NCBI RefSeq assembly: GCF_009834915.1
Contig: NZ_WVHS01000001.1
Span: 1,488,001-1,552,000 of the forward strand
DNA length: 64,000 bases
From: Hufsiella ginkgonis
GTDB taxonomy: Bacteria > Bacteroidota > Bacteroidia > Sphingobacteriales > Sphingobacteriaceae
Direction: 5' to 3'
Below the pieces are notes generated by a model. It ran no database searches and was not told where the DNA came from. It saw only the letters and a list, made by a program, of their open reading frames with translations. Below are positions 21,095 to 37,387 of this stretch, piece by piece; position 1 is the first letter of the stretch; every line of letters begins with the position of its first letter. The position numbers were made by a program, and so were the translations under genes.

Positions 21095-21166
21095 GAAAAG
21101 GGGAAATATTTTTTCCCCCCTGCAACTTTTCTCCTTTCCGGGAGTCTTCTTCTAAAATCACTTTTG

Positions 21167-23602
21167 ATGAAAACGAATCGGTTTAAAAGGATCGCCGTGC
21201 TTATATATGTAAGCACTTACATAAATATCGGTTTTGCGCAGACGGGCCCCTTCACTATTAAAGGCAGAATGGTTGCGGAGAAGAAGATCAGCTTTAAAGA
21301 AGTAACGCTGCAGTTGGTCAGGGCCGCTGATTCGGCGCTGGTTAAGACGGATATCGCGGATGAATCCGGGAATTTCGCGTTCGAGCTGGTCCCTGCCGGC
21401 GATTACCGGGTGCGGATCTCACATATCGGGCTGCAAACCTATCGCTCTGCGGTGGTGAATGCGGCCAAAGCCGACCTGGGCACCATCCAGTTGCGGGAGC
21501 GTACCAGCGAGTTAAAGGAGGTGGCCATCACGGGGCAGAAGCCGTTCATCCAGCAGCAATTTGATAAAACGGTGCTGAACGTAGAAAGCAGTATCGTGTC
21601 TGCCGGGAGCACCGCTATGGAAGTGCTGGAAAAGGCGCCGGGAATTACCGTAGACCAGAACGATAACATTAAAATGCGGGGCAGGCAGGGGGTGCAGGTA
21701 ATGATCGACGGGAAACTGGTGCCCATGTCGGGCGCAGAGCTGGCGACCATGCTGCGGGGCATGTCGAGCAACGCCATCGAGAAGATCGAGCTGGTGACCA
21801 ATCCTTCTGCCCGGTATGATGCTTCGGGTAATTCGGGAATCATTGATATCAGGTTAAAAAAGGACAAGCGCAACGGCACGAACGGAAGCTTGTCGGCCTC
21901 CCTTTTACAGGGAAAATACAACAAAGCCAATTCCGGGTTGACATTGAATCACCGTAATAAGAAAGTGAACCTGTTCGGATCGTACAATTACATCTTTCGG
22001 CGCGAGTTTACCGACCTGGCCATTTACCGCGATTTTGACGAATCCGGGAATTTTACGGGCGCCGACGACCAGGCCAATTACTTTAAAGCGCGGTACAACA
22101 CCCACAACTACCGGGCGGGGCTCGATTATAACGTATCGGCTAAGACCACCGTTGGGTTTACTGCCAACGGATTTAACCTCAACATAGACCGTAACGGCGA
22201 TAACCAGTCTACGCGCATAAACGCGCAGCATACAGCGTCATCGTACGCGCATACCGCTTCTAACAGCACAAACGGGCGGTTTAACCCGGGTCTTAACCTT
22301 AACCTCCGCCAGCGGCTGGACCAGGCGGGTAAGAAAGAGCTTTCGGTCGACCTGGATTATGCACGTTACAATACCAACGATGACCAGAACTATGTAACCA
22401 CGTACCGTACGGCGGCCAACACGCAGGAAAAGCCCGACTACCATTTGTATGGCGACCTGCACGGTCACCTCAGCATACGGTCGGCAAAAGCCGATTACGC
22501 TCAACCCCTTAATAAAACGGCGCGCCTGGAAGCCGGCTTAAAAAGCAGTTGGGTAAGCGCCGATAATAACCTTTCCTTTTATGACCGCAGCAACGGCAAC
22601 AATATATTAGATATGTCGAAAAGCAACCATTTTTTATACCAGGAGAATATCAATGCCGCCTACGTCAATATCTCTTCGCAGCAAAAGAAATGGACGCTGC
22701 AGGGAGGTTTGCGTATAGAGAATACCAATTCGGAGGGCGAGCAGCTAAACGGGGGCGATTCCTTCGACCGCTCGTACGTACAGTTGTTCCCAAGCGGGTA
22801 TGCGGGCTACAAGTTTAACAATAAACACGAACTGGGTATTTCGGTAAGCCGCAGGATTAACCGGCCTACTTACAACCAGCTTAACCCGTTTAAGTACTAC
22901 ATTAACGCCAGCACCTATAATTCCGGCAATCCTTTCCTCAAGCCAGAGCTCACTTATTCGGTGGAGGTTACACATACCATTAACCAAAGTATTACCACGA
23001 AGTATAGCTACAGCCACACTACCGACAATATGATCTCGGTATTGTCGCCGGATAAATCGCAGGCAAACCTGGTGATCCAGACCGACCGGAACCTTGCCAG
23101 CCTCAACTATTATGGGGTGAGCGTGTCTGCACCGGTGCACCCCGCTCCCTGGCTTACCAGTACCAACAACCTCAATTTTTATTACGGGCTTTACAGCGGC
23201 AACCTGGTAAATACCCATCTGCACAGCGGCACGCCAACATTCGGTATTAATAGCAGCAATGCCATTACCATAAACGCTGGCCTCACGGCCGAAGTGGCGG
23301 GTGTTTACCAGACCAAAGAAGTGTATGCCTTTATGACCGTGCGGCCCATCTGGTCGGTTTCGGCGGGATTACAGCAACAATTATGGAACAGGAAGGCCAG
23401 TGTGAAGCTAAACCTGGCCGACGTTTTTTATACCAGTAAAACGAGGGCGGTTACCCGTTCCACCGGCTATGTAGAAAACTTTTACCAGCAGCGCGATTCG
23501 CGCGTAGCAACGCTTAACTTTACCTACCGGTTCGGGCGCAGCCCATCGTCGGCACCGCGGAGAGTTTCCGGCGCCGAAGACGAGAAAAGAAGAGCCGGCT
23601 GA
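21167..23602 (+). CDS. TonB-dependent-receptor-like outer membrane beta-barrel protein
   Basis: Exported 811-aa outer-membrane protein. Signal peptide ending near GFAQT, a carboxypeptidase-regulatory-like beta domain (about 28-110), a plug-like region (LEKAPGITVDQNDNIKMRGR ... NPSARYDASGNSGIIDIRLKK, about 145-235) and a large barrel of the OMP_b-brl_3 type ending VATLNFTYRFGR. ATG 21167 is preferred to the TTG one codon earlier. After the last strand there is a charged tail of about 20 residues. No SusD partner follows; a MarR regulator gene starts 4 bases later, suggesting co-transcription. The transported ligand is unknown. Confidence 0.9.
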   Translation: MKTNRFKRIAVLIYVSTYINIGFAQTGPFTIKGRMVAEKKISFKEVTLQLVRAADSALVKTDIADESGNFAFELVPAGDYRVRISHIGLQTYRSAVVNAAKADLGTIQLRERTSELKEVAITGQKPFIQQQFDKTVLNVESSIVSAGSTAMEVLEKAPGITVDQNDNIKMRGRQGVQVMIDGKLVPMSGAELATMLRGMSSNAIEKIELVTNPSARYDASGNSGIIDIRLKKDKRNGTNGSLSASLLQGKYNKANSGLTLNHRNKKVNLFGSYNYIFRREFTDLAIYRDFDESGNFTGADDQANYFKARYNTHNYRAGLDYNVSAKTTVGFTANGFNLNIDRNGDNQSTRINAQHTASSYAHTASNSTNGRFNPGLNLNLRQRLDQAGKKELSVDLDYARYNTNDDQNYVTTYRTAANTQEKPDYHLYGDLHGHLSIRSAKADYAQPLNKTARLEAGLKSSWVSADNNLSFYDRSNGNNILDMSKSNHFLYQENINAAYVNISSQQKKWTLQGGLRIENTNSEGEQLNGGDSFDRSYVQLFPSGYAGYKFNNKHELGISVSRRINRPTYNQLNPFKYYINASTYNSGNPFLKPELTYSVEVTHTINQSITTKYSYSHTTDNMISVLSPDKSQANLVIQTDRNLASLNYYGVSVSAPVHPAPWLTSTNNLNFYYGLYSGNLVNTHLHSGTPTFGINSSNAITINAGLTAEVAGVYQTKEVYAFMTVRPIWSVSAGLQQQLWNRKASVKLNLADVFYTSKTRAVTRSTGYVENFYQQRDSRVATLNFTYRFGRSPSSAPRRVSGAEDEKRRAG

Positions 23603-23605
23603 CAT

Positions 23606-24088
23606 ATGGATTTTATCAACAGCCTGGGTGCTTTAGCGTTAGCAACAAGGCTTAAGCGTTTGAGCGACAAGCTTGGCCAGGACGTGAGCCGCGTGTACAA
23701 AGAACAGAACCTGGATTTTGAGTCCAGGTGGTTCCTCGTGATGGCTTTGCTGGAGAAGAAAGGCACGTTATCTGTGGTGGAGATCTCGGACTCATTAAAG
23801 CTGAGCCACCCGGCTATCGTACAATTTACGGCGCAGATGCATGAGCGCGGCCTGATCGTTTCTGTTTACGACCAGTTCGACGCCCGCAAGCGCCTGATCT
23901 CTCTTTCTGACGAAGGAAAGCAGCTGATGACGAAATTGAAGCCGTTACTTGCCATCATTAAAGAACAGAACGAGGCCTGGCTGAGTGAGGCCGGAAGCGA
24001 TTTCCTGGCATTGATCTCGCGGCTGGAAGATTCGCTCGGGTTTAAAAGCATGTATGAGCGTGTAACGGGGGCGATCAACCAGGAGTAA
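23606..24088 (+). CDS. MarR-family transcriptional regulator
   Basis: A 160-aa winged-helix DNA-binding protein. The recognition part is visible as SVVEISDSLKLSHPAIVQFTAQMHERGLI (helix-turn-helix, about 52-80) followed by the wing sequence SVYDQFDARKRLISLSDEG with the conserved Asp-x-Arg. Helices at both ends would form the dimer interface. It begins 4 bases after the receptor gene and so is likely to control or be controlled with it; the effector is unknown. It ends at a strong bidirectional terminator. Confidence 0.92.
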   Translation: MDFINSLGALALATRLKRLSDKLGQDVSRVYKEQNLDFESRWFLVMALLEKKGTLSVVEISDSLKLSHPAIVQFTAQMHERGLIVSVYDQFDARKRLISLSDEGKQLMTKLKPLLAIIKEQNEAWLSEAGSDFLALISRLEDSLGFKSMYERVTGAINQE

Positions 24089-24154: not shown

Positions 24155-27085
24155 TTAGTTTCCCGTTCCCGGCGGACGGTTGCCGCCACCGAAGCCGCCT
24201 TCTCTCCGGCGATCGCCGTTGTTCTGGTTCATATTGTCAGGCGCGATGGAGCCGCTGGCAAATTTCTGAAGCCGCATGGTGAACGTCATCATGAAATAGC
24301 GTCCAAGGCGGTTGTTGCGGGTTTCGGTACGTGCCCCCGTGGTGCTGATCGTACTTGAAATGCCAGTGTTTTCGTTAAACAGGTCATATCCCTGGAAACG
24401 TAAAGTGGCTCTTTTATCCTCAAAGAATTGTTTTTCCAGGTAAGTGCTCAGGATCTGCGGGTTGTTGGCCACCGAGCCGCTGTAACCGGAGTTGATGTTC
24501 TTGTTGTAGTCGATCCCTACCAGCATGCTTTTGGCAAAGAAGAACTTGCCATCGGTGCTCATCTCCCAGGTTTGCAGGTTATTGTTGGAGTTGGCGAAAT
24601 CGGATAACGAGTTTTTAGTGGCATTGTAAATATAACGCACCTGCGGGGTCAGCTCGAACCTGGTGGAAGGATTGATCTGCAGCCGTACGCGTTGTGAAGC
24701 GATGGTGTTCTTGCCGATGTTCTTCTCAGAGTCGGCATAAGAGATGTTGTTGTTGTAGTTAAGCGATCCGCCGAAGGTTAAGATGTACTTACGCTGCGCC
24801 ATCGGGATAGAATACGTATAGAAACCAAACATGCTGTAGTAGCCATCTGCGTTCAGGAACCGGGTTTCCTGGGTGATGATCTTGTTCTTAATCACCCTTA
24901 CGGAGTTGTTCACGATCTTGTCATTGGTCATGTTTAAGTTAAAGTTAGCGAACAACGTTCTCCCGGTAGTGAACTGCGTATTGTTAAACCGGATGTTAAA
25001 GCTATGGTTAAACTCCGCATTCAGGTTAGGGTTACCGATAATCGGGTTATTCGGGTTAGAGCGGTCGGCCACCGGCTGGATCTGCTGGAAACTTGGTTCG
25101 TTGTTACGACCGAAATAGTTTACGTTAAACTCCTTGGACCGTGAGAATTTGTAGGTGAACCGTGCGATCGGGACGAAGTTAAAACCCGTACGGCGGGAGG
25201 TGACGCCCCGGCTTATCGATTCGCCTTCCAGCAGCGACGGCTGTCCGCTTATCCCGATCGAGTAGTTGTACTTTTTCTCGGTAAACCGGTAAGTTAAACC
25301 GAAGTTGTTGGTGGTAAACGAGTAGTTATAAATATTACTCAGCGAATCTACGCGCACGTCGCCTTTATTAAGATCGAAAGTTTCGCGGGCGTTGTCGTAG
25401 TTTGCACGGCTGTAGTTCCAGTTCGCTTCCAATGACGCACGCTTGCCGATAGGTTCGATATAGAGGAAGCGGGCCCCGCTGCTTACACTTTTATTGTCAT
25501 TGTGCAGGCGCTGGTTCAGCGTCGAATCTTTTACCACGTTATTGGTAGTTACGTCCCTGTAGGTCCCGATAAAGTCTGTTTCCTGGTCTGAGTTGGTATT
25601 GTTGCCGTTAATGTTTAAGAATAACGATACGTTACGTCCCTGTTTGTGGAAGCGGTGGTTCAGCAAAATATTGCCTCCCCAGTTAGGAGTTTCGTTAGAG
25701 GTAAGGGCGCGGGTATTTTGCGTAGAACTGTTAATGATCGAGTTTCCCTGCTGGGCAAGCTGTGTATAGCTGTTGCCGTTGCTTTTGCTGTAGCTAAAAG
25801 AAGGGGAGAACTTAATGTAGTTCATGCTGTCGGGCGCAAATTCCAGGTTCCAGTTAAACCGGTGGTTCAGGGTAGAAGTAAGCGCATCGGTTTTGATGTT
25901 ATTGAGCACGTTACCGTTGGTAGGGTATGGATCTTCGCGGAAAGTAGTGCTTACGCTGTTGTTATCCCTGTTCGAGAAGCTGTAGCTACCATAAGTGGTT
26001 ACGCGTTTGCCAAGCTGGTCGCGGTAGTTAAAACCAACCGCACTAGCGGAAGAGATACCGTCGTTACCGCCGCCGCGCCCGTTCAGGCTGTTTCCGCCTC
26101 GCGGCTGACCACCGTTGTTGCCACCACCGCCGCCGCCATTATTACCACCGCCGCCGCCGTTGTTGCCTCCGCCACCGCCGTTATTACCACCGCCGCCACC
26201 ATTGTTGCCGCCGCCACCGAAGTTGAACAGGTTGGCGTTAGTATTGTTGATGTTTCCGAGGATGTTCATTTGCCGTGTATTGTTAAAATAGTTGGCATTG
26301 GCCGAAAGCTGGTGCCGTTCGGCTTCGGGGGCGCCCGCATCCTGCACGTCGCGACCTGCGCCGGCTACAGCGTTCCCGAAAAATCCTTTGTTTTTATCCG
26401 GGCGAATAGTGATGTTAATGATCTTTTCCGAGTCGCCGTTGCGTGAACCCGTCAGGTTTGCCTGGTCGCCATAATCATCGATGATCTGGATCCGCTCGAT
26501 GAGGTCGGCCGGGAGGTTTTTCGTGGCTGTTTGCAGGTCGCCGCCAAAATAGTCTTTACCGTTTACGCGTACTTTGGTTACGCTTTTGCCCTGGGCGGTT
26601 ACGGCACCGTCTTTATCCACTTCCAGCCCGGGAACTTTTTTCAGCAAGTCTTCGGTGGTAGAGTTCACGGGTAATTTATAGTCAGACGCACGGTACTCGA
26701 TGGTGTCTTCCTTAATGATCACCGAGCGTACCGTGGTGATGTTTACGGTGCCCAACACCTGCGATTCCTCTTTCAGCACGATGGGCTCGAGCACGATGGG
26801 CTCTGCGCCGTCGTTATATGCGTACTTACGCGTTTGCTGGTTGTAACCCAGGTTAGAGATGGTGAGTACGAACTGCGACCTTTTCACGTTATTGAACGAG
26901 AAGGTTCCATCAGTTTTACTGCTCATTCTGAGGGTATCGGTACCGGCAACCAGCTTAATGGTGGCGCCAATTACCGACTGGCCAGTGGTGTCTTTCACCA
27001 CGCCGCTAACTTGCCGGGGCGTTTGCGCGTAGAGCGCGCCGGAACAAAGCATCAGGAAAAAATAGAGATATAGCGTTTTCATCAT
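24155..27085 (-). CDS. Outer-membrane beta-barrel protein with Gly/Asn-rich insert (paralogue 1)
   Basis: Exported 976-aa outer-membrane protein, related in sequence to the two genes upstream. Signal peptide (to about YAQT, 20-22), carboxypeptidase-regulatory-like domain (25-105), a plug-like section (DLLKKVPGLEVDKDG, VRVNGKDYFGGD, IIDDYGDQANLTG), a Gly/Asn-rich insert of GGGGGNN units (about 290-342), then an Asn-rich barrel. After the last strand (YFMMTFTMRLQKF) a tail of about 35 residues ends GGFGGGNRPP. No SusD or TonB-box evidence. A consensus -7 box lies 36 bases upstream. Start is ATG 27085 or the adjacent ATG 27082. Substrate or cargo unknown. Confidence 0.88.
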   Translation of the reverse strand: MMKTLYLYFFLMLCSGALYAQTPRQVSGVVKDTTGQSVIGATIKLVAGTDTLRMSSKTDGTFSFNNVKRSQFVLTISNLGYNQQTRKYAYNDGAEPIVLEPIVLKEESQVLGTVNITTVRSVIIKEDTIEYRASDYKLPVNSTTEDLLKKVPGLEVDKDGAVTAQGKSVTKVRVNGKDYFGGDLQTATKNLPADLIERIQIIDDYGDQANLTGSRNGDSEKIINITIRPDKNKGFFGNAVAGAGRDVQDAGAPEAERHQLSANANYFNNTRQMNILGNINNTNANLFNFGGGGNNGGGGGNNGGGGGNNGGGGGNNGGGGGGNNGGQPRGGNSLNGRGGGNDGISSASAVGFNYRDQLGKRVTTYGSYSFSNRDNNSVSTTFREDPYPTNGNVLNNIKTDALTSTLNHRFNWNLEFAPDSMNYIKFSPSFSYSKSNGNSYTQLAQQGNSIINSSTQNTRALTSNETPNWGGNILLNHRFHKQGRNVSLFLNINGNNTNSDQETDFIGTYRDVTTNNVVKDSTLNQRLHNDNKSVSSGARFLYIEPIGKRASLEANWNYSRANYDNARETFDLNKGDVRVDSLSNIYNYSFTTNNFGLTYRFTEKKYNYSIGISGQPSLLEGESISRGVTSRRTGFNFVPIARFTYKFSRSKEFNVNYFGRNNEPSFQQIQPVADRSNPNNPIIGNPNLNAEFNHSFNIRFNNTQFTTGRTLFANFNLNMTNDKIVNNSVRVIKNKIITQETRFLNADGYYSMFGFYTYSIPMAQRKYILTFGGSLNYNNNISYADSEKNIGKNTIASQRVRLQINPSTRFELTPQVRYIYNATKNSLSDFANSNNNLQTWEMSTDGKFFFAKSMLVGIDYNKNINSGYSGSVANNPQILSTYLEKQFFEDKRATLRFQGYDLFNENTGISSTISTTGARTETRNNRLGRYFMMTFTMRLQKFASGSIAPDNMNQNNGDRRREGGFGGGNRPPGTGN
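26115..26222. repeat. 21-bp coding minisatellite in barrel paralogue 1
   Basis: Five near-identical units of 21 bases (the first 24) run through 26115-26222, starting TTGTTGCC or TTATTACC on the + strand and encoding GGGGGNN on the minus strand. Unit boundaries fall at 26139, 26160, 26181 and 26202. The period is a multiple of three, so loss or gain keeps frame. Confidence 0.85.
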
Positions 27086-27120
27086 AATCGTATTACAACT
27101 TCCGTTTTTTTAAGGGAGCG

Positions 27121-27128
27121 CAAAAATA
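27121..27128 (-). promoter_or_regulatory. Promoter -7 box for barrel paralogue 1
   Basis: On the minus strand the sequence reads TATTTTTG, a perfect TAnnTTTG, 36 bases before the start codon. This suggests that paralogue 1 can be transcribed separately from paralogue 2, whose stop is 105 bases further upstream. Confidence 0.55.
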
Positions 27129-27233
27129 ATTCCTATAGTGTTATTTATCGCCGCTTAAAAGGGGGGTTATCAACATTGTTACCGTTTTCCACACTTTCAG
27201 GAGTAATAAGCCGGGATTGTAACGAAACAATCA

Positions 27234-30044
27234 CTATTGGATAAAGCTGCCATCACCCCTGCGCGGGCCTGCGGTGCGGCGGCTGCCTGAATACTTAGCA
27301 GGACGCCAGGTCATGGAGACCAGGAAGTAACGGCTGTTCAAGTTGCTGGCGGTCACGGTAGATCCGAGATCGGTAACTTGCTTGTTTGCGCCATTATTCT
27401 GGTTAAGAAGGTCGGAACCGCTCACCTGTACCGAGGCGTTTTTTCTTTTCAGGAATTCCATACGAACATAAGTATTGATGATAAAGGGGTCTTTGGTGAC
27501 CGTAGGATTTAGGCCGCTCACGAAGTTTTTGCCAAGGTCGTAACCGAAAACGAGACGCTGTTTGGCGATCACGCGGCCGTCCACCCCCAGGTCCCAGTTC
27601 TTGGTACGGCTATCATTTGAAATGGGAAGCGATAGATTGATCTTCCGGAAGGTATGGTTAATATTGGGGTTGATCTGCAGCCATTCCCTGGGCTCTATTT
27701 GCACGTTGAAGCGTTCGACAAAAGTCCAGGTGGTGCGGATATTCTCAGTTCCGTTATTCATTGAAATACCCCGTTCGGTGCCAACCTGGCCGTTTAGCCG
27801 GAAGCGGAGCACCTGGCTGCTGGTGCTTTTGTTTAAGCTGTAGTTGCCAGAGATCGTACGGTTGCCGCCATCGAGGTTAAAGAAGCGGGTTTCCCGGGTC
27901 CTGTAGAGGTCTTTGTTCTGGATAGAGTTGGTTACCACCTGGTTGCGGGTGGTGGTATAAGAGCCAGAAGCATTAAACGTGATGCGCGATGCCGCGATAT
28001 AGTTATTAAAATTAGCGGTTACGTTATGCCTGAAAGAGGCTTTCAGGTTAGGATTTCCATATACAGTTAACCCTGCGGTCGACACATCCGGCACGTCCTG
28101 GATCTGTGTATAATTCGGTTCCTGGGGATCGCCGTTGTAATTCAGCGTAAACTGTTTTTGGCGTGTCCAGCGGTATTGGAGGCGTACCACGGGCACCATG
28201 TTAAAGCTTTCGCGGCGGGTGGTATTCCCGAGGCTTTGCGACTCGCCCTTCAGCAGGCCCGGAACCCCGCTGATTCCCAGTGAATAATTGAATTTGGTGT
28301 TATTGTTACCACGACGGAAATTGAGCGTTACCCGTTTCTCCGTAAAAGAATAGTTAAACAATTTGCTGAGCGAATCTACGACAGACTGTTGACCCCGGGT
28401 GTTGAGGTTGCTGGTGGTCTGGTCGTTGTCATAGCCACGGTAACTTAACCGCGCATTCAATTCAAGCTGGATGGTTGCGCCAAGACGCTGGGCGAAGGTA
28501 ACGCTGCCCCGGTAGTTGGTGTTGCCGTTATCCGTCAGCCTGATCCGGTTCACCAGCGAATCCTTGTATAGGCTGGCCGGATCGGAAGTAGCGAAATATT
28601 GGAGGTTTGAATAAGACGTATTATCAGACTCGTTGTTCGACCGGGCGCCGCTTCCCTGGAAGGAAATGGTTGATGCCTTCCGCTTGCCGAAATAGCGGGC
28701 ATAGTTTACGGTAAGCCCGTAGTTAGGCGATGACGATGAGCTGTTTGTTTTGGTTTTGGTATCCTGGTTAATGCCGCCCCGCTGTACCCGGTTTGTATTG
28801 TTGTTGTTCGAAGATCCGTTGGTGCTGAACGTCGGGGTGATGATCATCCTGCTCGAACTGTCGGGGGTGAACTGGAACCGGAGATTAAGATTGTGGTTAT
28901 ACCCGGTATTGTCGGTTCCTACGTCGCGTGTGGAGGTTACCGTTTCGTCTATGCCGACGTATTTTTCGGTACTCACGGTGTTCTGGTCCTGGTTCCTCGC
29001 ATTCAGGTTAAACCCGTAGGTGGCTTCTACATTTAATTTGCGGTTAATGCGGTCGTTATAAGTAAACGTTGCGCCGCCGGTTTTAGAGTTACCGGTGCCG
29101 CCGCTACCGCCGAAGTTCCCGCCGCCACCATTACCTCCTCCGCCATTACCTCCTCCGCCGTTCCCGCCGCCTGCAACGCCAAGTACCGAACGATTGCCGT
29201 TCATCCTCACATTCATTTGCTGGTTGCCATTTAACCGCTCCAGGGTGGTATTACCGCTGATGCGCCCGGTTGTTCCCTTGGAGCCGTTAAAGTTCGCCCG
29301 GTTCATTACAGACTTGTCTTTACGGGTGACAATATTCAACACTTTTTGGGGATCGCCCGATTTCACGCCCGACAGAGCCGCTTCATCGCCATAATCGTCT
29401 ATCACCTGCACTTTCTCCGCAATTTCTGCGGGAAGATCGCGGATAACGCCGGCAAGATCGTTGCCCCCATAGTTTTGGCCGTTGATGCGCGCCCTGGTAA
29501 CGGCAATTCCCTGCGATGTTACGTTGCCGTCTTTATCTACTTCTATGCCTTCCATCTTCTTGAGGAGGTCTTCCATGGTCGCATTTTCCCGAACTTTGTA
29601 GTCGGCGGCCCGGTACTCCACGGTATCTGTTTTATAGGTGATAGTGGGGGTGCCGTTAATGGGGATATCTGTGATCAGGATACTGTTGGTCTTTAAAATC
29701 ACCGGGTCGAGTACCAGCCGCGCACTGGTATAGGTGTAAAAGAATTTCTTGACGTAAGGTTCATAACCCAACGATTTCACCGTAAGGGTAAATTCCGGAG
29801 ACTGGATCTTCTTCAGCACGAATATCCCTTCGGCATTGGTGCTTACTTTAACGGTGTCGCGCGGGGAGGTGAGGGTAACGGTGGCGCCGATGACGGCCTG
29901 GTCGGTGGTATCTTTAACAATGCCGCTAACCTCGCGTACGGGGAGCGGTGCCGCGGGCTGTGCAGGCCGACGGGCCGGGGTCTGAGCAAAAACGGTACAG
30001 GCTAAAAGAATGTGCAGGGATAGTAATATGCAGATCTTTTTCAT
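27234..30044 (-). CDS. Outer-membrane beta-barrel protein with Gly-rich insert (paralogue 2)
   Basis: Exported 936-aa protein with the layout of its neighbours: signal peptide (to about FAQT, 19-22), a Pro/Ala-rich spacer, carboxypeptidase-regulatory-like domain (38-118), plug-like section (NGTPTITYKTDTVEYRAADY, LLKKMEGIEVDKDG, VIDDYGDEAALSG), Gly-rich insert of GGGGN units (291-316), and a barrel whose last strand (YFLVSMTWRPAKY) is followed by a basic tail ending RRGDGSFIQ. It is closer to paralogue 3 than to paralogue 1. It lies 97 bases downstream of paralogue 3, behind that gene's terminator. Confidence 0.88.
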   Translation of the reverse strand: MKKICILLSLHILLACTVFAQTPARRPAQPAAPLPVREVSGIVKDTTDQAVIGATVTLTSPRDTVKVSTNAEGIFVLKKIQSPEFTLTVKSLGYEPYVKKFFYTYTSARLVLDPVILKTNSILITDIPINGTPTITYKTDTVEYRAADYKVRENATMEDLLKKMEGIEVDKDGNVTSQGIAVTRARINGQNYGGNDLAGVIRDLPAEIAEKVQVIDDYGDEAALSGVKSGDPQKVLNIVTRKDKSVMNRANFNGSKGTTGRISGNTTLERLNGNQQMNVRMNGNRSVLGVAGGGNGGGGNGGGGNGGGGNFGGSGGTGNSKTGGATFTYNDRINRKLNVEATYGFNLNARNQDQNTVSTEKYVGIDETVTSTRDVGTDNTGYNHNLNLRFQFTPDSSSRMIITPTFSTNGSSNNNNTNRVQRGGINQDTKTKTNSSSSSPNYGLTVNYARYFGKRKASTISFQGSGARSNNESDNTSYSNLQYFATSDPASLYKDSLVNRIRLTDNGNTNYRGSVTFAQRLGATIQLELNARLSYRGYDNDQTTSNLNTRGQQSVVDSLSKLFNYSFTEKRVTLNFRRGNNNTKFNYSLGISGVPGLLKGESQSLGNTTRRESFNMVPVVRLQYRWTRQKQFTLNYNGDPQEPNYTQIQDVPDVSTAGLTVYGNPNLKASFRHNVTANFNNYIAASRITFNASGSYTTTRNQVVTNSIQNKDLYRTRETRFFNLDGGNRTISGNYSLNKSTSSQVLRFRLNGQVGTERGISMNNGTENIRTTWTFVERFNVQIEPREWLQINPNINHTFRKINLSLPISNDSRTKNWDLGVDGRVIAKQRLVFGYDLGKNFVSGLNPTVTKDPFIINTYVRMEFLKRKNASVQVSGSDLLNQNNGANKQVTDLGSTVTASNLNSRYFLVSMTWRPAKYSGSRRTAGPRRGDGSFIQ
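29116..29175. repeat. 15-bp coding minisatellite in barrel paralogue 2
   Basis: Units of 15 bases such as TTACCTCCTCCGCCA (29131-29145 and, with one change, 29146-29160) with more diverged copies on either side encode GGGGN on the minus strand. It sits at the same place in the protein as the 21-bp repeat of paralogue 1. Confidence 0.8.
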
Positions 30045-30103
30045 TATAGTTGGTTATGAGTAAAAATCTCCCGCACATTTCAAGAAGAACCGGCAAAATA
30101 TAA

Positions 30104-30135
30104 AAGTGCGTCCCGACTTCCCGCAGGACGCACTT
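30104..30135 (-). terminator. Terminator after barrel paralogue 3
   Basis: AAGTGCGTCC (30104-30113) and GGACGCACTT (30126-30135) form a 10-base perfect stem with a 12-base loop; on the minus strand it runs into CTTTTATATTTT. It begins 6 bases after the stop codon of paralogue 3. Confidence 0.85.
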
Positions 30136-30141
30136 CACTTA

Positions 30142-32946
30142 TTAGTTGACGAAGCTGCCATCGCCGCGGCGGCGGATCTGCTGCCCGCCACGACCCTGTG
30201 CACCAGTCCATTTCTGCAGGTAAACGCCCAGGTTTACCATGAAGTAACGGCTGTTGGGGTTGGTTTTGGTTTCGGTGAAACCGTTGCCATTAGAGGTAAC
30301 GTTAATAAAGTTGTTCTCGTTAAGAATGTCGAACGCCCTCAGCTGCAGCGTGCCCCTGTTTTTAAGTACGCGGGTCTGGAGGCTGGCATTGATCACGAAC
30401 GGGTTACCGGCCACGTTGTTGGTGGTGCTGTGGATAAAGTTCTTGCTCAGCGCATAGCCGAACTGCCATGTTTTAAGGAAGTAAACGTTACCATCCAGGC
30501 TTAATGCGGTGGTATTTGTTTTAATATCCCTCAGGGTGGGCAGCGTATAGTTGGTCTTGTTGAAATCGTAAGACACGTAAGGGTTAATTTCTAACCAGGT
30601 AGTAGGGTTAAGCCTTGGGCCGAAGTTTTCTTTGAAACCCCAGGTAGTGGCCGTCTGTGTTTTCGAATCTGTTTGCGAAGTACGGTTGTTGTTGTTAACG
30701 CTTCCCGAGAAGGACAGAGAGATCCTGCGGTCGTTCAGCTGTTTTGCTATCAGGTAATCGGCATTGTGCTGGTAAGATCCGCCAAGGTTAATGTAACGCA
30801 CCTCGTTCCTGAAAACACCCGGCGAAGTGATCTTTTCCACCACGTTGGTAGTTACCTGGTCTTCTATAAATGAAGAGTTAGCGTTTAAGCTGAGATTTAG
30901 CTTCGAGTTGGCGATGTAGTTGCTGTACTGGCCAAAAATGGTGTGGGTAAAGGCCACTTTCAGGTCGGGGTTACCCACTATCACGCTGTTCGGGTTAGAT
31001 ACATCCCTTACTGGCTGGATCTGGTCGAAAGAAGGCTCGCTGGCCCGTCCGTTATAGTTTACAGAAAGCTGGTGCGAGCGGGAAAATTTGAGCTGGAACC
31101 GGGCGATCGGGATGATCTTAAAGTACTTTTGATCGGTGCTTGTTCCAAGGCTCGCTTTCGTGCCTACCAGCGAAGTGTTTACCGCAGTTAAACCTAACGA
31201 GAAGTTATAAGTGCCTGCATTGTTGCCGTAACGATAGTTTAACGAGTTGCGGTACTGGGTAAACGAGTATTCGTAAATGTTACTTAAGCTGTCAACACGG
31301 TTTGTGCCTTTGATCAAGTCGCCGGTGAGGCGTGCGTTATCATAAGAACGGCGTTCTACGTTCGAGTTAAACTCCAGCCTCGCCAGTTTGGTCAGCGGCT
31401 CCGCAAAGGTTAAGCTGGTGCGGTAGCTGTTTTGGTGGTTGTCTGTGGTAGTGCGGTAGTTGTAGGTTGAATCGGGACGCAGTCCTTTATAATCAAAGTC
31501 TACGCGCTGGTAGGTGGTGCCTTCGTTTTTCTGGCTGCTGGCGGTCGCCTCGATGGAGAAAGAACGGGAAGGTTTGCTGCGCCATACGTGCTGGTAAGCA
31601 ACCGTTGCGCCTACGTTGGGTGTAGAGCTGTTGTTATTGTTATTGTTCACCTGGTCCTGCAGCATCCTGCCGGTTTGTGAGTTGGTGGTAAAGCCGGTAT
31701 TGTCCGAGCTGTTCAGGGTGATATACGGCCTGAACTGCATGAAGTTCGCACTATCGATATTATATTCTACCTCGAAGTTGATGTTATGCGACCTGCTATC
31801 GTTATTGGTGATGGCTTTGCGGGTCGAATAAGTAGCGCCGAACGTGCTTGCCATTTCCGAATAAGTTTCGGTAACCGCATCGTTGGAGTTATAGTTGAAG
31901 AAGTAGTTTGCATTAAACTCTACTTTCTTTCCAAAGCTGTCGCGGAAAGTAAAAGCAGGGTTTAGTCGCGTGTTGGTTCCGCCGGATGCGTTGCCGCCCG
32001 GGCTGCCGAAGGTGTTACCGGTACGGCCGCCACGGTTTTGCGCGCCGCCTAAGCGGCCAACGCCGCCACCGCCGCCGGCGATCCCGTTTGGCGTTTTGAA
32101 GTAATTGCCGTTTAAAGTAATGGTTTGGTTGCCGTTAATACGGGTTAAGTTGACGCTGCCTTCCAGCTGATCCACGGTACCTGCACCTCCGTTCAGGCGT
32201 AACTGGTTACCTACCGATTTATCCACCCGTGTGGTAAGGTTCAATACTTTAGACGGGTCGCCCTCTTTTACGCCTGTTCTTTTCGCTACGTCGCCATAGT
32301 CGTCAACCACCTGCGCTTTTTCGATAATTTCTGCAGGGAGGTTCTGGATCACCGAGGCCACATCGCCGCCATAAATATCTTTTCCGTTCAGCCTGGCTTT
32401 ACCAATGCTTTGGCCGTTGTAGGTAACGGAACCGTCATTACCCACTTCCATGCCTTCCATCTTCTTTAAAAGCTCATCTACCGTTGCGCCGGCTCTTACT
32501 ACGTAGTCGCTTGCCCGGTACTCCACGGTATCCGTTTTATAGGTGATGGAGGGCGTGCCGTTGATGGCGATCTCGTTAAGGAGCTTTGCTTCGTTCCTTA
32601 AAATGATCGGGTCCATGGTGAGGCGCGGGGTAGCGTCGTTATATTTTCCCTTGACGGCTTTGGTACGGTACCCCATGCTGGTTACGCTCACGGTGAACTC
32701 CCATGATTTTACTGCCTTAAATACATAGATCCCATCGGCATTGGTGCTGGCTTTGAGGGTATCGGCCCGCGAAGTAAGCGTTACGATGGCGCCGATAACG
32801 GCTTCATCCGTACTGTCTTTTACGATGCCGCTTACTTGCCGTAACGGGATTGGCTGTGCAGGCGTTGCTGCGGGTCGCTGCTGTGCCCTGGAGCCGAATA
32901 TGCCAGAGATCATGATCGCGGCAAAGAGGAAGAGGAGTTTTTTCAT
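30142..32946 (-). CDS. Outer-membrane beta-barrel protein with Gly-rich insert (paralogue 3)
   Basis: Exported 934-aa protein. Signal peptide (to about SRAQQ, 19-22), spacer rich in Pro/Ala, carboxypeptidase-regulatory-like domain (38-118), plug-like section (NGTPSITYKTDTVEYRASDY, LLKKMEGMEVGNDG, VVDDYGDVAKRTG), a Gly-rich insert (290-323) that is less regular than in the other two, and an Asn/Ser-rich barrel. The last strand (YFMVNLGVYLQKW) is followed by a tail ending RRRGDGSFVN, almost the same as in paralogue 2. First barrel gene after the secreted CBM9-like protein gene (152-base gap). No SusD partner. Confidence 0.88.
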   Translation of the reverse strand: MKKLLFLFAAIMISGIFGSRAQQRPAATPAQPIPLRQVSGIVKDSTDEAVIGAIVTLTSRADTLKASTNADGIYVFKAVKSWEFTVSVTSMGYRTKAVKGKYNDATPRLTMDPIILRNEAKLLNEIAINGTPSITYKTDTVEYRASDYVVRAGATVDELLKKMEGMEVGNDGSVTYNGQSIGKARLNGKDIYGGDVASVIQNLPAEIIEKAQVVDDYGDVAKRTGVKEGDPSKVLNLTTRVDKSVGNQLRLNGGAGTVDQLEGSVNLTRINGNQTITLNGNYFKTPNGIAGGGGGVGRLGGAQNRGGRTGNTFGSPGGNASGGTNTRLNPAFTFRDSFGKKVEFNANYFFNYNSNDAVTETYSEMASTFGATYSTRKAITNNDSRSHNINFEVEYNIDSANFMQFRPYITLNSSDNTGFTTNSQTGRMLQDQVNNNNNNSSTPNVGATVAYQHVWRSKPSRSFSIEATASSQKNEGTTYQRVDFDYKGLRPDSTYNYRTTTDNHQNSYRTSLTFAEPLTKLARLEFNSNVERRSYDNARLTGDLIKGTNRVDSLSNIYEYSFTQYRNSLNYRYGNNAGTYNFSLGLTAVNTSLVGTKASLGTSTDQKYFKIIPIARFQLKFSRSHQLSVNYNGRASEPSFDQIQPVRDVSNPNSVIVGNPDLKVAFTHTIFGQYSNYIANSKLNLSLNANSSFIEDQVTTNVVEKITSPGVFRNEVRYINLGGSYQHNADYLIAKQLNDRRISLSFSGSVNNNNRTSQTDSKTQTATTWGFKENFGPRLNPTTWLEINPYVSYDFNKTNYTLPTLRDIKTNTTALSLDGNVYFLKTWQFGYALSKNFIHSTTNNVAGNPFVINASLQTRVLKNRGTLQLRAFDILNENNFINVTSNGNGFTETKTNPNSRYFMVNLGVYLQKWTGAQGRGGQQIRRRGDGSFVN

Positions 32947-33098
32947 TGTTTGAGGATTGGGCGGCCAGCTATCGCAGCCGGCGGTTTGAGGGTGTTATTT
33001 GTTTGTGTTATCCGGGGTTTAGACAAAGCGTCCTTGCCCCGGTATTTTACCGAACTTATCGGGTTTAAATTGTTAACTAAAGGTTCAGGAGCGTTCTG

Positions 33099-34052
33099 TT
33101 ATTTTTTGGCGAGCGTGTATTTGGCCCAAAAGTCTGTCGGGGTGAACATCGCCTGGCGATCGTCGTTTCCGCCGCCGCCGCCACCACCGCCACCTGGACG
33201 GTTCCCGCCTCCGAAGCCGCCACCACCTCCTCCTCCGAAGCCGCCGCCACCTCCGCCGAATCCACCGCCACCACGGTTTCCGCCGTTGTTGCCTCCTCCG
33301 AAGCCGTTTCCGCCAAAGCCGCCGAGGTTCAGCCCGTTCACACGAACGTTATAGGAAAACTCTTTGCTGTCGGGTTTTAACCCCATGGATTCGAGCGGAA
33401 TAGAAAGCTCGTAAGTGAAAAGGCCTGCTTCATCAAATGAAGCCGAGGCTTTAACGCCATATTCGTTGTAAATGGAAATAACGCTGTCGGTAATGTTTTT
33501 GAAACCCAATACCTTGATCTCTTTCACACCGGCAAGCTCTGTTTTATGACGTGCAAGCGTCGCCGAGTCGCGTTGCGCCTGGCTCATTTGCGGGCCGCCC
33601 GGACCGCCGAATCCGCCACGGCCTCCTTGTCCGCCCTGGCCTCCAAATCCTCCGCCACCCGGCTGACCCTGGCCCCTGCCCTGCTGCCCGCGTGTACGGG
33701 TTACCAGCGGGTAAGTAACTACGTAAGCGTCTTTCAGTTTCTTCTTGTTATCGGTATTAATCGCCAGGCTGATGCCGCCCAGCATGATCTTGTTATTGGT
33801 CTGGGCGTCGTTTGACTGGATCACCAGGTAAAGGTTCTTGTCGTCGTTAGCCAGCGTGTACATTAGCTTGGTGGCTTTGTTGGTAGCCTGTAGTGCCTGC
33901 CATTCTGCCGACTTGCCGTCTACTTTTACCGCCGATGCCCAAACGGGGGCGGCCTGTACATCCTCTTTTTGCGCGACGGCTGTCATGGTGAAGCCTGCAA
34001 GCGCAAGAGTGCCTATGGTTAATTTAATCCGGGTTATCAATTTCGATTTCAT
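33099..34052 (-). CDS. Secreted CBM9/DOMON-like protein with two Gly-rich loops
   Basis: A 317-aa exported protein (signal peptide to about VAQKE, residue 28; start ATG 34052 chosen for that reason). The ordered parts resemble a CBM9-like beta sandwich: VDGKSAEWQAL (44-54), NDDKNLYLVIQSND (69-82), YELSIPLESMGL (214-225), EFSYNVRVNG (231-240) and a last strand DFWAKYTL (307-314). Two low-complexity loops interrupt it: 121-154 (Gly/Gln/Arg) and 243-296 (Gly/Phe/Asn, with runs such as GGGGFGGGGGG). No enzyme motif. The two-component genes lie just upstream and the three barrels downstream on the same strand. Confidence 0.8.
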   Translation of the reverse strand: MKSKLITRIKLTIGTLALAGFTMTAVAQKEDVQAAPVWASAVKVDGKSAEWQALQATNKATKLMYTLANDDKNLYLVIQSNDAQTNNKIMLGGISLAINTDNKKKLKDAYVVTYPLVTRTRGQQGRGQGQPGGGGFGGQGGQGGRGGFGGPGGPQMSQAQRDSATLARHKTELAGVKEIKVLGFKNITDSVISIYNEYGVKASASFDEAGLFTYELSIPLESMGLKPDSKEFSYNVRVNGLNLGGFGGNGFGGGNNGGNRGGGGFGGGGGGFGGGGGGGFGGGNRPGGGGGGGGGNDDRQAMFTPTDFWAKYTLAKK

Positions 34053-34160
34053 ATTTTTTACAATGAACAATTTTAACTATCTCTATTTGCCTGCTAAAAT
34101 GAATGATACAAGCACGTGTGTAAATTGCGACCAAAAGGCCTTTTTTAGCTATTTTAACAT

Positions 34161-34886
34161 TTATTCCTGGTGGCCGATATAAGCCATCAGGTTATCCCGG
34201 TAATTGTCGCTTACGGGGATCTCGTCCTGCTGCACCATGATCCTGTTTTTCTTAAATGCCGAAATCTTATCAAGTGCAACGATATACGATTTATGCACCC
34301 GCATAAACTTCGCCGGCGGCAGCTTTTCTTCCATGTACCGCATGCTTAAACGCGTGATCACGGCTTTTTGTGTATCGGCCAGGAAAATCTTGATATAATC
34401 CTTCAACCCTTCGATGTAACGGATGTCGTCGATACGTATACGAACGATCGAATAATCGGCATTTACAAAAAGGTGATCCTGCTCCGGTTTGGCCACCGGC
34501 GTTTTTACCGGTTCTTTTTGCTGTTCGCGAAGTGAGAACAGCTCCCATGCCTTGTTCACCGCTTTCATAAAACGTTCGAAAGGAACGGGTTTAACGAGGT
34601 AGTCCACCACGTCGAGGTTAAACCCATCGAGTGCATATTTCTCATACGCGGTTACCATGATCACCATTGGCGGGTTGGTAAGGCTGCTTAGGAACTGCAA
34701 TCCCGACAGCCCGGGCATCTGGATATCCAGGAAGATCAGGTCTACGGGCTCCTTACGTATCAGCTCCATGGCATCCATGGCATTTTTGCATTTGCCGGCC
34801 AGCGAAAGGAAAGGCACCTGGCTCAGGTTATCTTCCATGAGCTCGAGCGCAAGCTTTTCATCGTCCACTAACAGGCAGCGCATCAT
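34161..34886 (-). CDS. LytTR-family response regulator
   Basis: A 241-aa response regulator. Receiver domain (1-115) with the acidic pocket VDDE, phosphorylated Asp 54 in IFLDIQMPG, and the Lys in [12 protein letters not shown]; then a linker and a LytTR DNA-binding domain (about 135-240; [36 protein letters not shown]). Its ATG overlaps the TGA of the kinase gene (ATGA), so the pair is translationally coupled. It is the only response regulator in the window. The nearest downstream genes on the same strand encode the secreted Gly-rich protein and three barrels, its most likely targets. Confidence 0.95.
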
Positions 34887-36028
34887 GCTAATTTGATTTT
34901 AAGATCTGCCACAAAAACACTGCCTGTTTGCATAATATCCATGTTAAAATTGTCTTTGTACAGGAGCTCCAATCGTCTTCTTACGTTCACCAGGCCAATG
35001 CCCGAGCTTTTATCTTTCGAGTCCTGCTGCGGAGCGATGGTGTTCATTACCTTAAAATCGAGCCAGCCGGTTTGTTCGTTGATGGTGAGCAGGATGTTTA
35101 TCTGGGGGTTTTCTACCATTCCCACACCGTGCTTAAAAGCATTTTCCACAAAAGGTGCAAGCAGCATAGGCTCGATGGTTATACCCCCGGTATTTTCCGG
35201 CGGGTTAAAGGTAATAGTTACATCGTCACCAAAACGCAGGAGCTGCAGATTGATATAGCTTTTAAGGTAACTGATCTCCTTATCGAGTGTAACTTTTTCG
35301 TCATCATTCTCATAGAGCATATATCGCATCAGATTGGAGAGCTGGATGAGCGAAGGCTCGAGCAGGTCAGACTTTTTCCGCGCCAGCGAAACCATGTTAT
35401 TGAGGATATTGAAAATGAAGTGCGGGCTCACCTGCGACCGTAAAAAGCTGAGCTCGGTTTTTAGGTTTTCGTTTTCTTTTTCCTTCCGGATCTTAGACTG
35501 GATAGAATTATCGAGCTGCAGCCGGTAGATAAAACTACTGCAGACCACGAAGAAATACGGGAGCAGCCTGAACCACAATTCGCCGATCTTCCACCAAATC
35601 CAGATAAACATACCTGAATCAGGTCCGGGACCTCTCGGTCCGCGTCGTCCGCCCCGAGGCCCCCCCGGGCCTCCCGGCCCCTTGCCCTCATGCACTTCCC
35701 TTTCGAACTTGTCGAAATCCATCTTGTCTACGAGCTCCGAGATCAGGTCAGACAAAAAGTAAAGTATCGCGATACTGGCGATAACCGTCACCACGTACAC
35801 CAGCATCCCCCGCTGGCGGTAGATCACGGGATAAAGGTAGTACGTGTTCAGGTAAAAGAGTATGGCGAGGATCACCTTATAAGCCATTACCTTGTACTGC
35901 CAGTCTGTAAATCCCTTCCACGTTTCGGTATTCCTGAAAATGTAAGGGGAGAAGATAATCAACCCCCAGAACAGGATGTGCAGCAGCGGTTGAATATATC
36001 TGTTTGAATAAAAATTTTTCAGGTTCAT
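34883..36028 (-). CDS. LytS/His_kinase-type sensor kinase with Gly/Pro/Arg-rich periplasmic loop
   Basis: A 381-aa inner-membrane kinase (start ATG 36028; a GTG two codons earlier is possible). Four membrane helices (roughly 13-33, 50-68, 76-97, 141-168), then a His_kinase domain with [14 protein letters not shown] (His about 203) and a HATPase_c domain ([32 protein letters not shown]). With the kinase in the cytoplasm, the loop between helices 3 and 4 (about 98-140) is periplasmic. It is the only sizeable one and carries a [11 protein letters not shown]-type segment. This matches in composition the Gly-rich inserts of the downstream genes. Confidence 0.93.
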
Positions 36029-36133
36029 TGGCACGAAAGTACCGGTAATACTAACCCTGATCAGACATTATAGCCAAAGCGTAACTTTTCAGCGACGAAA
36101 GTGCCCGTTTTAGCGACATTGCTTACGTACGTA

Positions 36134-37387
36134 TCAGGCGTTTTCTTCCCACACTTCAGCCAGGTGAACGATCGTTTTAACGGCATATTCCATATCCTGC
36201 ACCGATATCCATTCCTGTTTGCCGTGAAATGCGTGTTCGCCGGCAAAGATATTCGGGCAAGGCAGCCCCATAAACGACAGGCGAGAACCATCCGTACCAC
36301 CACGGATCCGCTGTGGCCGGGGAATAAGGCCGGCACGTTCGATGGCCGTAACCGCATGTGCAGCCACGTGCGGATGGTTGCGCAGTATCTCCTTCATATT
36401 GCGGTATTGTTCGGTTACCCGCAGCTGGTACGAGGAGTTGGGAAAATGACGCATCACGTCGTCGGCTATCGCTTCCAGCAGCCGCCGGTGTGCAGCCAGG
36501 CCTTCGGTGGCGAAATCACGAAGAATAAACTCAATGGTGGCTTCTTCCACGCTCCCCGAAATACTTACCGGGTGAATAAAGCCCTGTTCGCCTTCGGTGC
36601 TTTCGGGTGAGAGTTTTTCGACCGGCAGGTTTGCCACGATGGCCGATGCGATCTTGATAGCGCTTTCCATCCGCCCTTTGGCGAACCCGGGATGCGCGCT
36701 CACACCGGTGATGGCCAGGACTGCCCCATCTGCAGAAAAGGTTTCATCTTCCAGCGAGCCCAGTGTTTCTCCATCTACCGTATAGGCATAGTCTGCGCCC
36801 AGCCTTTCGAGGTTCACGAGGTTCACGCCCCTGCCGATCTCTTCATCAGGAGTAAACAGGAGGCGGATAGTTCCGTGCTTAACTGCAGGATGACTGACGA
36901 GGAAGTTGGCGGCATCCATTATTTCGGCGAGCCCCGCCTTATTGTCGGCGCCCAGCAGCGTTCTCCCGCTGGCGGTAATGAGGTCGTTACCTAGCTGGTG
37001 CGGCAGATCAGGATGCTCGGATTTACGGATCACAACAGCGGGATCATCGGGCAGCACCAGGTCGTTGCCCTGGTAGTTGGCATGGACGATGGGTACTACG
37101 CCTGCGCCGCTGCAATCGGGCGAAGTATCCATGTGCGAGCAAAAACAGATCACCGGAACATTTTTAGTGGTGTTGGAGGGGATGGTGGCATATACGTAGC
37201 CGTTTCCGTCTACCGCTGCATCGGTAATTCCCATTTGGTGAAGCTCGTCTGCCAGGATGCGGGCCAGGTTAAGTTGTTTTGCTGTCGACGGACAGGTTGC
37301 CGAGGCGGGGTCAGATTGTGTATCGACCGTTACATAGCGTAAAAAACGCTCTTTGGCCGTAAAAGTATATTGATCGAAATAATCCAT
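36134..37387 (-). CDS. pepT: Peptidase T (tripeptide aminopeptidase)
   Basis: Cytoplasmic dizinc M20 peptidase (417 aa) releasing the N-terminal residue of tripeptides. Metal and catalytic motifs: CFCSHMDTSPD, LLGADNKAGLAEIM, LLFTPDEEIGRG, YTVDGE and the C-terminal RIRGGTDGSRLSFMG. N-terminal RFLRYVTVDTQSDPASATCPST is characteristic of PepT. Length is normal. It stands alone, divergent from the next gene across an AT-rich 43-base gap. Confidence 0.96.
   Translation of the reverse strand: MDYFDQYTFTAKERFLRYVTVDTQSDPASATCPSTAKQLNLARILADELHQMGITDAAVDGNGYVYATIPSNTTKNVPVICFCSHMDTSPDCSGAGVVPIVHANYQGNDLVLPDDPAVVIRKSEHPDLPHQLGNDLITASGRTLLGADNKAGLAEIMDAANFLVSHPAVKHGTIRLLFTPDEEIGRGVNLVNLERLGADYAYTVDGETLGSLEDETFSADGAVLAITGVSAHPGFAKGRMESAIKIASAIVANLPVEKLSPESTEGEQGFIHPVSISGSVEEATIEFILRDFATEGLAAHRRLLEAIADDVMRHFPNSSYQLRVTEQYRNMKEILRNHPHVAAHAVTAIERAGLIPRPQRIRGGTDGSRLSFMGLPCPNIFAGEHAFHGKQEWISVQDMEYAVKTIVHLAEVWEENA

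Follow-up and report, generated by a model that had tools for sequence, protein, structure and literature searches.

The window, a 64,000-nucleotide stretch of the Hufsiella ginkgonis genome, contains six consecutive minus-strand genes (24155-36034; Table 1) for three PF14905 barrels, a 317-aa exported protein, a LytTR regulator and a PF06580 kinase, as an earlier sequence-only reading had proposed. The barrels scored 108.8 (B1), 85.7 (B2) and 114.2 bits (B3) against a cut-off of 27, and all three also carry CarboxypepD_reg domains. The kinase adjoins a regulator with both Response_reg and LytTR domains and the two are a LytS/LytTR pair; the regulator reached 140.2 bits with the BtsR model NF008677, below its cut-off of 246. 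No SusD-like gene was present among the six genes and the four neighbours scanned, and a profile scan found no glycosidase at the locus. Unlike Bacteroidota TonB-transporter pairs, B1-B3 matched OMP_b-brl_3 and neither the Pfam Plug model (PF07715, absent among matches at E 0.1) nor the SusC/RagA model TIGR04056. The locus is not a standard SusC/SusD polysaccharide-utilisation locus, and on this point the sequence-only reading was correct.

Table 1. Features of the six-gene locus, in coordinates of the window.
Feature	Position	Strand	Basis or remark
Operator half-site 1 5' of kinase, GTCGCTAAA	36109..36117	-	Predicted autoregulation
Operator half-site 2 5' of kinase, GTCGCTGAA	36088..36096	-	12-bp spacer; predicted autoregulation
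LytS-type sensor histidine kinase (PF06580)	34883..36034	-	82.8 bits, cut-off 25.2; 4 TM helices predicted
Kinase probable start, ATG	36026-36028	-	
Kinase periplasmic loop, residues 104-141, Gly/Pro/Arg-rich	35612..35725	-	Conserved in net positive charge but not in composition
LytTR response regulator (Response_reg + LytTR)	34161..34886	-	PF00072, PF04397 above cut-offs
Operator half-site 1 5' of CBM gene, GTCGCAATT	34123..34131	-	Predicted, motif match
Operator half-site 2 5' of CBM gene, GTATCATTC	34101..34109	-	13-bp spacer; predicted, motif match
-7 promoter element, TAAAATTG	34068..34075	-	25 bp after second half-site; Bacteroidota consensus, PMC6847099
Exported CBM9/DOMON-type-fold protein, 317 aa	33099..34052	-	Fold from model; signal peptide without lipobox
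CBM-like protein, Gly-rich disordered loop 1, residues 121-150	33603..33692	-	pLDDT under 50
CBM-like protein, Gly-rich disordered loop 2, residues 245-293	33174..33320	-	pLDDT under 50 almost throughout
Barrel B3, 934 aa, CBM-linked partner barrel	30142..32946	-	PF14905 and clade placement
B3 Gly-rich extracellular loop, residues 287-321	31984..32088	-	AlphaFold2 model
Terminator-like hairpin between B3 and B2, 13-pair stem	30103..30136	-	Strongest in region
Barrel B2, 936 aa, within CBM-linked barrel clade	27234..30044	-	PF14905 and clade placement
B2 Gly-rich insert, richest 40-aa window, residues 285-324	29073..29192	-	Composition
Barrel B1, 976 aa, outside CBM-linked clade	24155..27085	-	PF14905 and clade placement
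B1 Gly-rich insert, richest 40-aa window, residues 287-326	26108..26227	-	Composition

The 317-aa protein (hereafter the CBM protein) has a plain leader, and its predicted model matches both CBM9 (7nwn; VIA Z 12.7 over 155 residues, rmsd 3.6) and ethylbenzene dehydrogenase gamma (2ivf_C; Z 12.5), a fold that it shares with CBM9 modules and DOMON-type heme domains; it differs from these in its two long Gly-rich loops and in falling below Pfam CBM9_1 detection. The CBM9-like scaffold of the sequence-only reading was therefore upheld as a fold and not as a Pfam domain: no Pfam domain was found in the protein, CBM9_1 was unmatched in it and in 21 close relatives, and weak matches were confined to 3 of 30 proteins from the wider family (best E 0.0014). 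Sequence searches for relatives of solved structure returned low-complexity or marginal matches only, and the GLPGLI model TIGR01200 did not match. Both loops were found as that reading had described them, with 20 Gly among 34 residues in segment 121-154 and 39 among 54 in segment 243-296.

Comparison of 79 homologous CBM loci, mostly from the Sphingobacteriaceae, a family of soil bacteria, placed a barrel of about 950 aa next downstream of the CBM gene in 75 (median gap 32 bp), with single-barrel pairs as the rule, whereas the genes upstream varied (subtilase, cytochrome bd, MgtC or LytTR) and a LytS/LytTR pair lay near only six of the 79 pairs. The CBM family was present in 106 and the barrel in 105 of 151 sampled Sphingobacteriaceae genomes, and CBM relatives adjoin a barrel in two other families, in the same order in one (f39) and reversed in the other (f35). 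Judged by these gene neighbourhoods, the conserved unit comprises the two genes for a secreted Gly-rich protein of CBM9 fold and for one barrel, not the six proposed earlier as a module, and the LytS/LytTR pair is optional beside it. As to the two findings named beforehand as counting against such a module, the regulator indeed usually lies apart from the pair, and Gly-rich segments were present in most members rather than absent. This conserved unit of surface genes is uncatalogued; a literature search that took in few subscription journals found no paper on the CBM-barrel pair. The window would hold an enlarged version of it, with a kinase pair predicted to be autoregulated, CBM-B3, and extra barrels from within (B2) and outside (B1) the CBM-linked lineage.

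The AlphaFold2 model of B3 (pLDDT 76) is a plugged barrel with an N-terminal plug fold, as Foldseek also indicated, and its nearest structural matches are TonB-dependent transporters (best E 2.3e-15, modest TM of 0.3-0.5), XusA among them. A glycine-rich insert near residue 290 in all three barrels had been placed at the plug/barrel junction; the richest 40-aa windows (68%, 58% and 43% Gly) do start at residues 287, 285 and 284, but in the B3 model the insert is disordered and follows the third barrel strand, which makes it a modelled extracellular loop rather than a junction. Most of the 30 barrels compared across the Bacteroidota are Gly-rich in this same loop, and on this comparison the insert is a trait of the barrel subfamily and not, as first supposed, of the locus. 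Among CBM homologues 72%, and among barrels 67%, have a 40-aa window with at least 40% Gly, against 0 of 503 unrelated neighbouring proteins of at least 200 aa; at least 25% was reached by 71 of 74 CBM proteins and 65 of 74 barrels of pairs. Co-tuning of Gly content between partners was considered and rejected (Spearman -0.35 over 74 pairs). The literature search, limited as above, returned nothing on Gly-rich loops in such barrels.

Disordered Gly-rich segments in both partners, several tandem barrels and the finding of no transporter, enzyme or SusD adjoining the pair in the window would fit a structural or adhesive surface layer, in which barrels anchor a hydrated matrix of Gly loops and exported protein, nothing is imported and the regulator tunes the surface. 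We consider this unlikely because the plugged barrel is closest to TonB-dependent transporters, the partner retains a folded domain of CBM9 type in which many residues are invariant, and pairs with several barrels are the exception. Less probable still is that the Gly tracts are functionless, having grown neutrally by repeat slippage in exposed loops that tolerate them, as might be suggested by the 21/42-bp tandem repeat underlying the B1 tract (26123-26219), the shorter repeats in B2 and the CBM gene, the disorder of the tracts in models and the want of positive covariation between partners. However, the loop is Gly-rich in most barrels compared across the phylum and in 65 of 74 pairs, many of the tracts are non-repetitive, and unrelated proteins have nothing similar.

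Reading of promoters, with statistical testing afterwards, yielded a candidate operator in which a 9-bp half-site (consensus GTATCATTT) is repeated in the same orientation after a 12-bp spacer; 22 of the 34 promoters linked to a regulator carry it. Half-sites at this 21-bp offset compare with 0.5 regions expected and at most 3 in 500 shuffles, and every other spacing between 8 and 39 bp gave 3 at most, counts in which promoters from within one genus are non-independent data. A Bacteroidota -7 element (consensus from PMC6847099) lay 24-25 bp 3' of the operator in 19 of 23 cases (0.2 expected), and among CBM promoters outside the regulator set the operator occurred in 1 of 67. The repeat length of 9 nt and spacer of 12 (13 at the window CBM promoter) fall within the ranges for LytTR sites (9-11 nt repeats, 11-13 nt spacers; PMC4847170), while the half-site GTATCATTT and the distance to the -7 element set the window-type LytTR group apart; scanning the promoters for the textbook consensus (ACCGTT-type repeats) gave no match. 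The strict 21-bp pair is missing in 12 of the 34 regions, including that of the window, whose operator the fixed-gap pattern missed because its spacer is one base longer. The looser GTCGN{16,18}GTATCWTT matched five times in the whole genome, including the window CBM site, but a control pattern also matched five times, so it defines no regulon in this genome; the strict GTATCWTT pattern matched eight times family-wide, half of them outside recognisable CBM or barrel promoters.

Where the regulator lies elsewhere in the genome, the operator is still found at CBM promoters: in eight such genomes these outscored the CBM promoters of regulator-less genomes (p = 4e-5), with seven of the eight in the top 1.3% of null promoters against 0 of 15 controls. 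Across 151 genomes a variant operator was found at three places, all of them CBM or barrel promoters of the type described here. In this genome the LytS/LytTR pair very probably controls the CBM-barrel pair, to judge from predicted operators that recur across several genera. The earlier proposal that it governs the exported protein and the barrels is supported by operator evidence for CBM-B3; co-regulation of B2 and B1 is unsure because a hairpin separates B3 from B2 and no operator was found 5' of B1-B3, nor 5' of other barrels or CBM paralogues of this genome save for one weak pair at L042. That hairpin is the strongest of the terminator-like sites, whose total count in the region is near chance; sigma-70 promoter and terminator scans of the window were likewise at chance level, the sigma-70 consensus being inapplicable to Bacteroidota.

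All 17 regulators of at least 59% identity, the window's own included, are followed by a same-strand barrel of this family, with or without a CBM gene between, and many HK-RR-barrel loci have no adjoining CBM gene. The Gly/Pro/Arg-rich periplasmic loop reported for the kinase is present, but its composition is not conserved among linked kinases, whose loops range from 9 to 81 aa and from 0 to 33% Gly (the shortest, of 9 residues, having 0%) and are net positive in 23 of 23. Because a loop that can be so short is always basic, the kinase signal is probably small or anionic, at the membrane, rather than the Gly-rich protein. That the kinase directly senses that protein through this loop, as the sequence-only reading held, is highly improbable and was rejected as a conserved function, since operator and linkage persist through this variation and barrel loci without a CBM gene are common, even though CBM relatives occur beside LytTR pairs that lack such a barrel (L208, HK-RR-CBM; L057, CBM-HK-RR) or have another transporter type (L289, L293).

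We favour, with moderate confidence, the interpretation that these genes specify an outer-membrane system of two parts for uptake or surface capture, controlled by a two-component pair. Its most certain step is that the kinase, through the regulator, would switch on CBM-B3 and its own operon; next, the CBM-like protein would be a soluble partner working with the barrel; third, what the pair captures or imports may be some small nutrient, with glycan fragments and metal/heme complexes as candidates; and least certain, the extracellular Gly loop could serve as a flexible gate, or a brush, where the barrel opens. By analogy with SusCD, XusAB and barrel/GLPGLI pairs, the locus can be read as coding for a TonB-transporter-like barrel that is under regulation and has a soluble partner; import by the barrel is proposed on this analogy. 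As in SusC/SusD, XusA/XusB and BT2172/BT2173 (a TBDT/DUF4249 pair; PMC11003636), a barrel gene adjoins that of a small exported partner, but here this is a soluble CBM9-fold protein and not SusD, XusB or DUF4249. In other Bacteroidota families, barrels of the same Gly-loop subfamily lie directly 3' of a GLPGLI gene, their partners matching TIGR01200, in contrast to the CBM9-fold partner described here. Direct-repeat operators are likewise used by the LytTR regulators of E. coli YpdA/YpdB and BtsS/BtsR and by AgrA; YpdB has one transporter gene as its target (PMC4847170), whereas the predicted targets here are outer-membrane genes.

A bolder and doubtful extension of the uptake reading would make the system a novel kind of accessory to TonB transporters: matching disordered Gly loops would let the soluble CBM9/DOMON-fold protein dock on the barrel and would form a selective gate, a dedicated LytTR operator would switch production, and the Gly-loop theme would reappear with different barrel types and partners (GLPGLI, DUF4249) throughout the Bacteroidota. 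About 70% of sampled Sphingobacteriaceae genomes encode the CBM family and the barrel, and Pfam has no family for the partner. The fixed-spacing operator offers a handle that predicts which Bacteroidota genes are under LytTR control and from which the regulon, and after it the signal, can be traced, and the occurrence of a Gly-rich extracellular loop across the phylum raises the testable question of disordered gates on bacterial surfaces.

The six consecutive minus-strand genes that the sequence-only reading had grouped as one module are present as described (see table), but the unit kept across relatives is smaller: the gene for the Gly-rich exported protein with a CBM9-type fold (CBM) and the barrel that follows it, B3 in the window. 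CBM homologues occur in 106 of the 151 Sphingobacteriaceae genomes, and in an independent set of 79 CBM loci taken from named genomes (Pedobacter, Mucilaginibacter, Daejeonella, Sphingobacterium, Pelobium, Paradesertivirga and Pararcticibacter), 75 have a same-strand barrel of the window's family immediately downstream (median gap, 32 bp), while the neighbouring genes differ from locus to locus (subtilase S8, cytochrome bd oxidase, MgtC/M50, YHYH). Two other families also have a CBM relative adjoining a barrel, in the same order (L233) or reversed (L212).

Several neighbourhoods have features of their own. Locus L240 has the order CBM-barrel-CBM-CBM, and its genome (G130) has 19 CBM matches. 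In many Pedobacter loci (L100, L102, L105, L108, L111 and others) a subtilase S8 gene precedes the pair and lies close to the end of the contig, as would be expected if a repeated element (perhaps an rRNA operon) stood immediately upstream. The window holds a further PF14905 barrel of 812 aa without a Gly-rich loop (21164-23602, +), followed by a MarR-like regulator (23606-24088). An M20-type peptidase (36134-37387, -) adjoins the kinase; this placement appears conserved in several relatives (L275-L280), read directly only in L275.

Features of the locus (window positions)
Feature	Position	Strand	Description
B1	24155-27085	-	PF14905 outer-membrane barrel, N-terminal CarboxypepD_reg domain
B2	27234-30044	-	PF14905 outer-membrane barrel, N-terminal CarboxypepD_reg domain
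B3	30142-32946	-	PF14905 outer-membrane barrel, N-terminal CarboxypepD_reg domain
CBM exported protein	33099-34052	-	Pfam: no family
-7 element of CBM promoter, TAAAATTG	34068-34075	-	25 bp past second half-site
CBM promoter half-site, GTATCATTC	34101-34109	-	Predicted operator
CBM promoter half-site, GTCGCAATT	34123-34131	-	Predicted operator, 13-bp spacer to second half-site
Regulator	34161-34886	-	Response_reg+LytTR
Kinase	34883-36034	-	PF06580
Kinase promoter pair, GTCGCTAAA-N12-GTCGCTGAA	36088-36117	-	Predicted operator

Glycine richness in CBM proteins and barrels is extreme and above background: some 40-aa window holds at least 40% Gly in 72% of the CBM homologues and in 67% of barrels, but in 0 of 503 unrelated proteins of at least 200 aa from 80 fetched loci. 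In the 74 pairs the barrel's Gly-rich window begins between residues 253 and 339, with six exceptions. This loop is a trait of the barrel subfamily; nearly all of 30 members fetched across the phylum have their richest Gly window (23-72% Gly) at about 230-350. Directly upstream of several subfamily barrels stands a GLPGLI protein (TIGR01200) instead of a CBM protein, and GLPGLI-barrel loci with Gly-looped barrels were seen in other Bacteroidota families (L304, L307, L308, L318, L320).

A second class of module joins a LytTR kinase/regulator to a Gly-rich transporter of a different class (CarboxypepD plus Plug) and a DUF4249-type protein (L287, L288, L289, L293). L289 and L293 run kinase, LytTR regulator, transporter (also with Gly-rich stretches), DUF4249-type protein and a CBM-Gly protein with a lipoprotein-type leader, the last split over two frames in L289. 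Among distant CBM relatives, over half have lipoprotein-like leaders; most barrel-paired CBM proteins have plain signal peptides.

The exported protein matched no family in a Pfam search, and its AlphaFold2 model, built from alignments of the window and named-genome relatives, shows, with confidence, a beta-sandwich in which two Gly-rich loops (121-150 and 245-293) are disordered. The CBM9-like scaffold proposed from sequence is borne out at the fold level (7nwn, Z 12.7); since the nearest solved folds include both CBM9 modules and the ethylbenzene dehydrogenase gamma subunit (2ivf_C, Z 12.5), which binds heme, the fold leaves a sugar or a heme ligand undecided. TonB-dependent transporters are the nearest solved structures of B3, with modest TM-scores. 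The Gly insert, placed earlier at the plug/barrel junction, falls instead at 287-321 in the predicted B3 model, directly after the third barrel strand (first strands 245-256, 261-271 and 274-286), and because this strand heads outward given a periplasmic plug, the loop is predicted to be extracellular.

The regulator is optional, yet linked to barrels. Each of the 17 regulators with 59% identity or more in the 151 genomes, the window's own included, has a same-strand barrel of the window's family after it, either with an intervening CBM gene (window, G002, G025, G064, G074, G147, G053, G039) or without (G011, G047, G030, G033, G075, G006, G090, G102, G117), but a kinase of the window type is near only 6 of the 79 CBM loci. 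B3 and B2 fall inside the CBM-linked clade of the barrel tree and B1 outside it, and regulator-linked barrels are spread over several clades, which argues that the regulator probably joined barrels more than once; the window itself looks like a merger of the regulator-CBM-barrel and regulator-barrel arrangements. L208, from another family (f45), repeats the window's order with a kinase fragment, then a LytTR regulator and a CBM-Gly gene; its contig is short and shows no barrel. In Hufsiella ginkgonis itself, a CBM paralogue at L057 (9514-12900) is followed by a large exported-domain kinase and then a LytTR regulator; no barrel of the window's family accompanies them.

A bipartite site, first spotted by reading promoters after regulators, is a candidate LytTR-type operator. 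When pairs of the half-site GT[AC][TGC][CA] were counted at all spacings in 34 regulator-linked regions, 22 had two half-sites exactly 21 bp apart (shuffles: mean 0.5, maximum 3), a count that is not fully blind, as the half-site was picked after some of those promoters were read, and to which, as to the other operator counts, genera contribute several related promoters each. Other spacings from 8 to 39 bp never exceeded 3 regions, and of the 67 CBM promoters not in the regulator set, only one had the pair. Independent of that choice are the peak in spacing, the distance to the promoter and a trans test. In 19 of 23 cases the Bacteroidota -7 element, of the TAnnTTTG class (PMC6847099), starts 24 or 25 bp past the last half-site (expected, 0.2). 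A weight matrix from regulator-adjacent promoters was run on CBM-barrel pairs far from the regulator: where the genome encodes the regulator, 7 of 8 CBM promoters scored within the top 1.3% of null promoters, against 0 of 15 in genomes without it (P = 4e-5, Mann-Whitney). The cleanest examples have perfect 9-bp repeats, GTATCATTT-N12-GTATCATTT (G011, G033), some Mucilaginibacter-type promoters carry triple sites, and a variant operator searched across the 151 genomes occurred three times, always at a CBM or barrel promoter of this kind. The direct-repeat architecture is that of known LytTR sites, whose 9-11-nt repeats are separated by 11-13 nt (PMC4847170). The window's kinase promoter has such a pair, and in several relatives a comparable one lies about as far from the kinase start, so autoregulation is predicted. 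A hairpin between B3 and B2 puts transcription of B2 and B1 from the CBM promoter in doubt.

The proposal that the kinase monitors the Gly-rich protein through a Gly-rich loop fares poorly: among 23 linked kinases, the loop between the third and fourth helices varies from 9 to 81 residues and from 0 to 33% Gly, which argues against such recognition. Its net charge is nevertheless positive in all 23 (+2 to +9), which weakly suggests an anionic ligand or surface.

Barrels with partners and LytTR control of transporters are already known kinds; the literature searched contained no description of this combination, its operator or the phylum-wide Gly loop. Comparative evidence points to regulation and to CBM-barrel pairing. 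Most likely, a signal would reach the kinase, the regulator would be phosphorylated and bind the direct repeats, and the kinase operon and CBM-B3 would be activated, after which the CBM-fold protein would serve as partner and the barrel as transporter. Import, what is carried and what the Gly loops do may be surmised by analogy with other Bacteroidota barrel/partner pairs.
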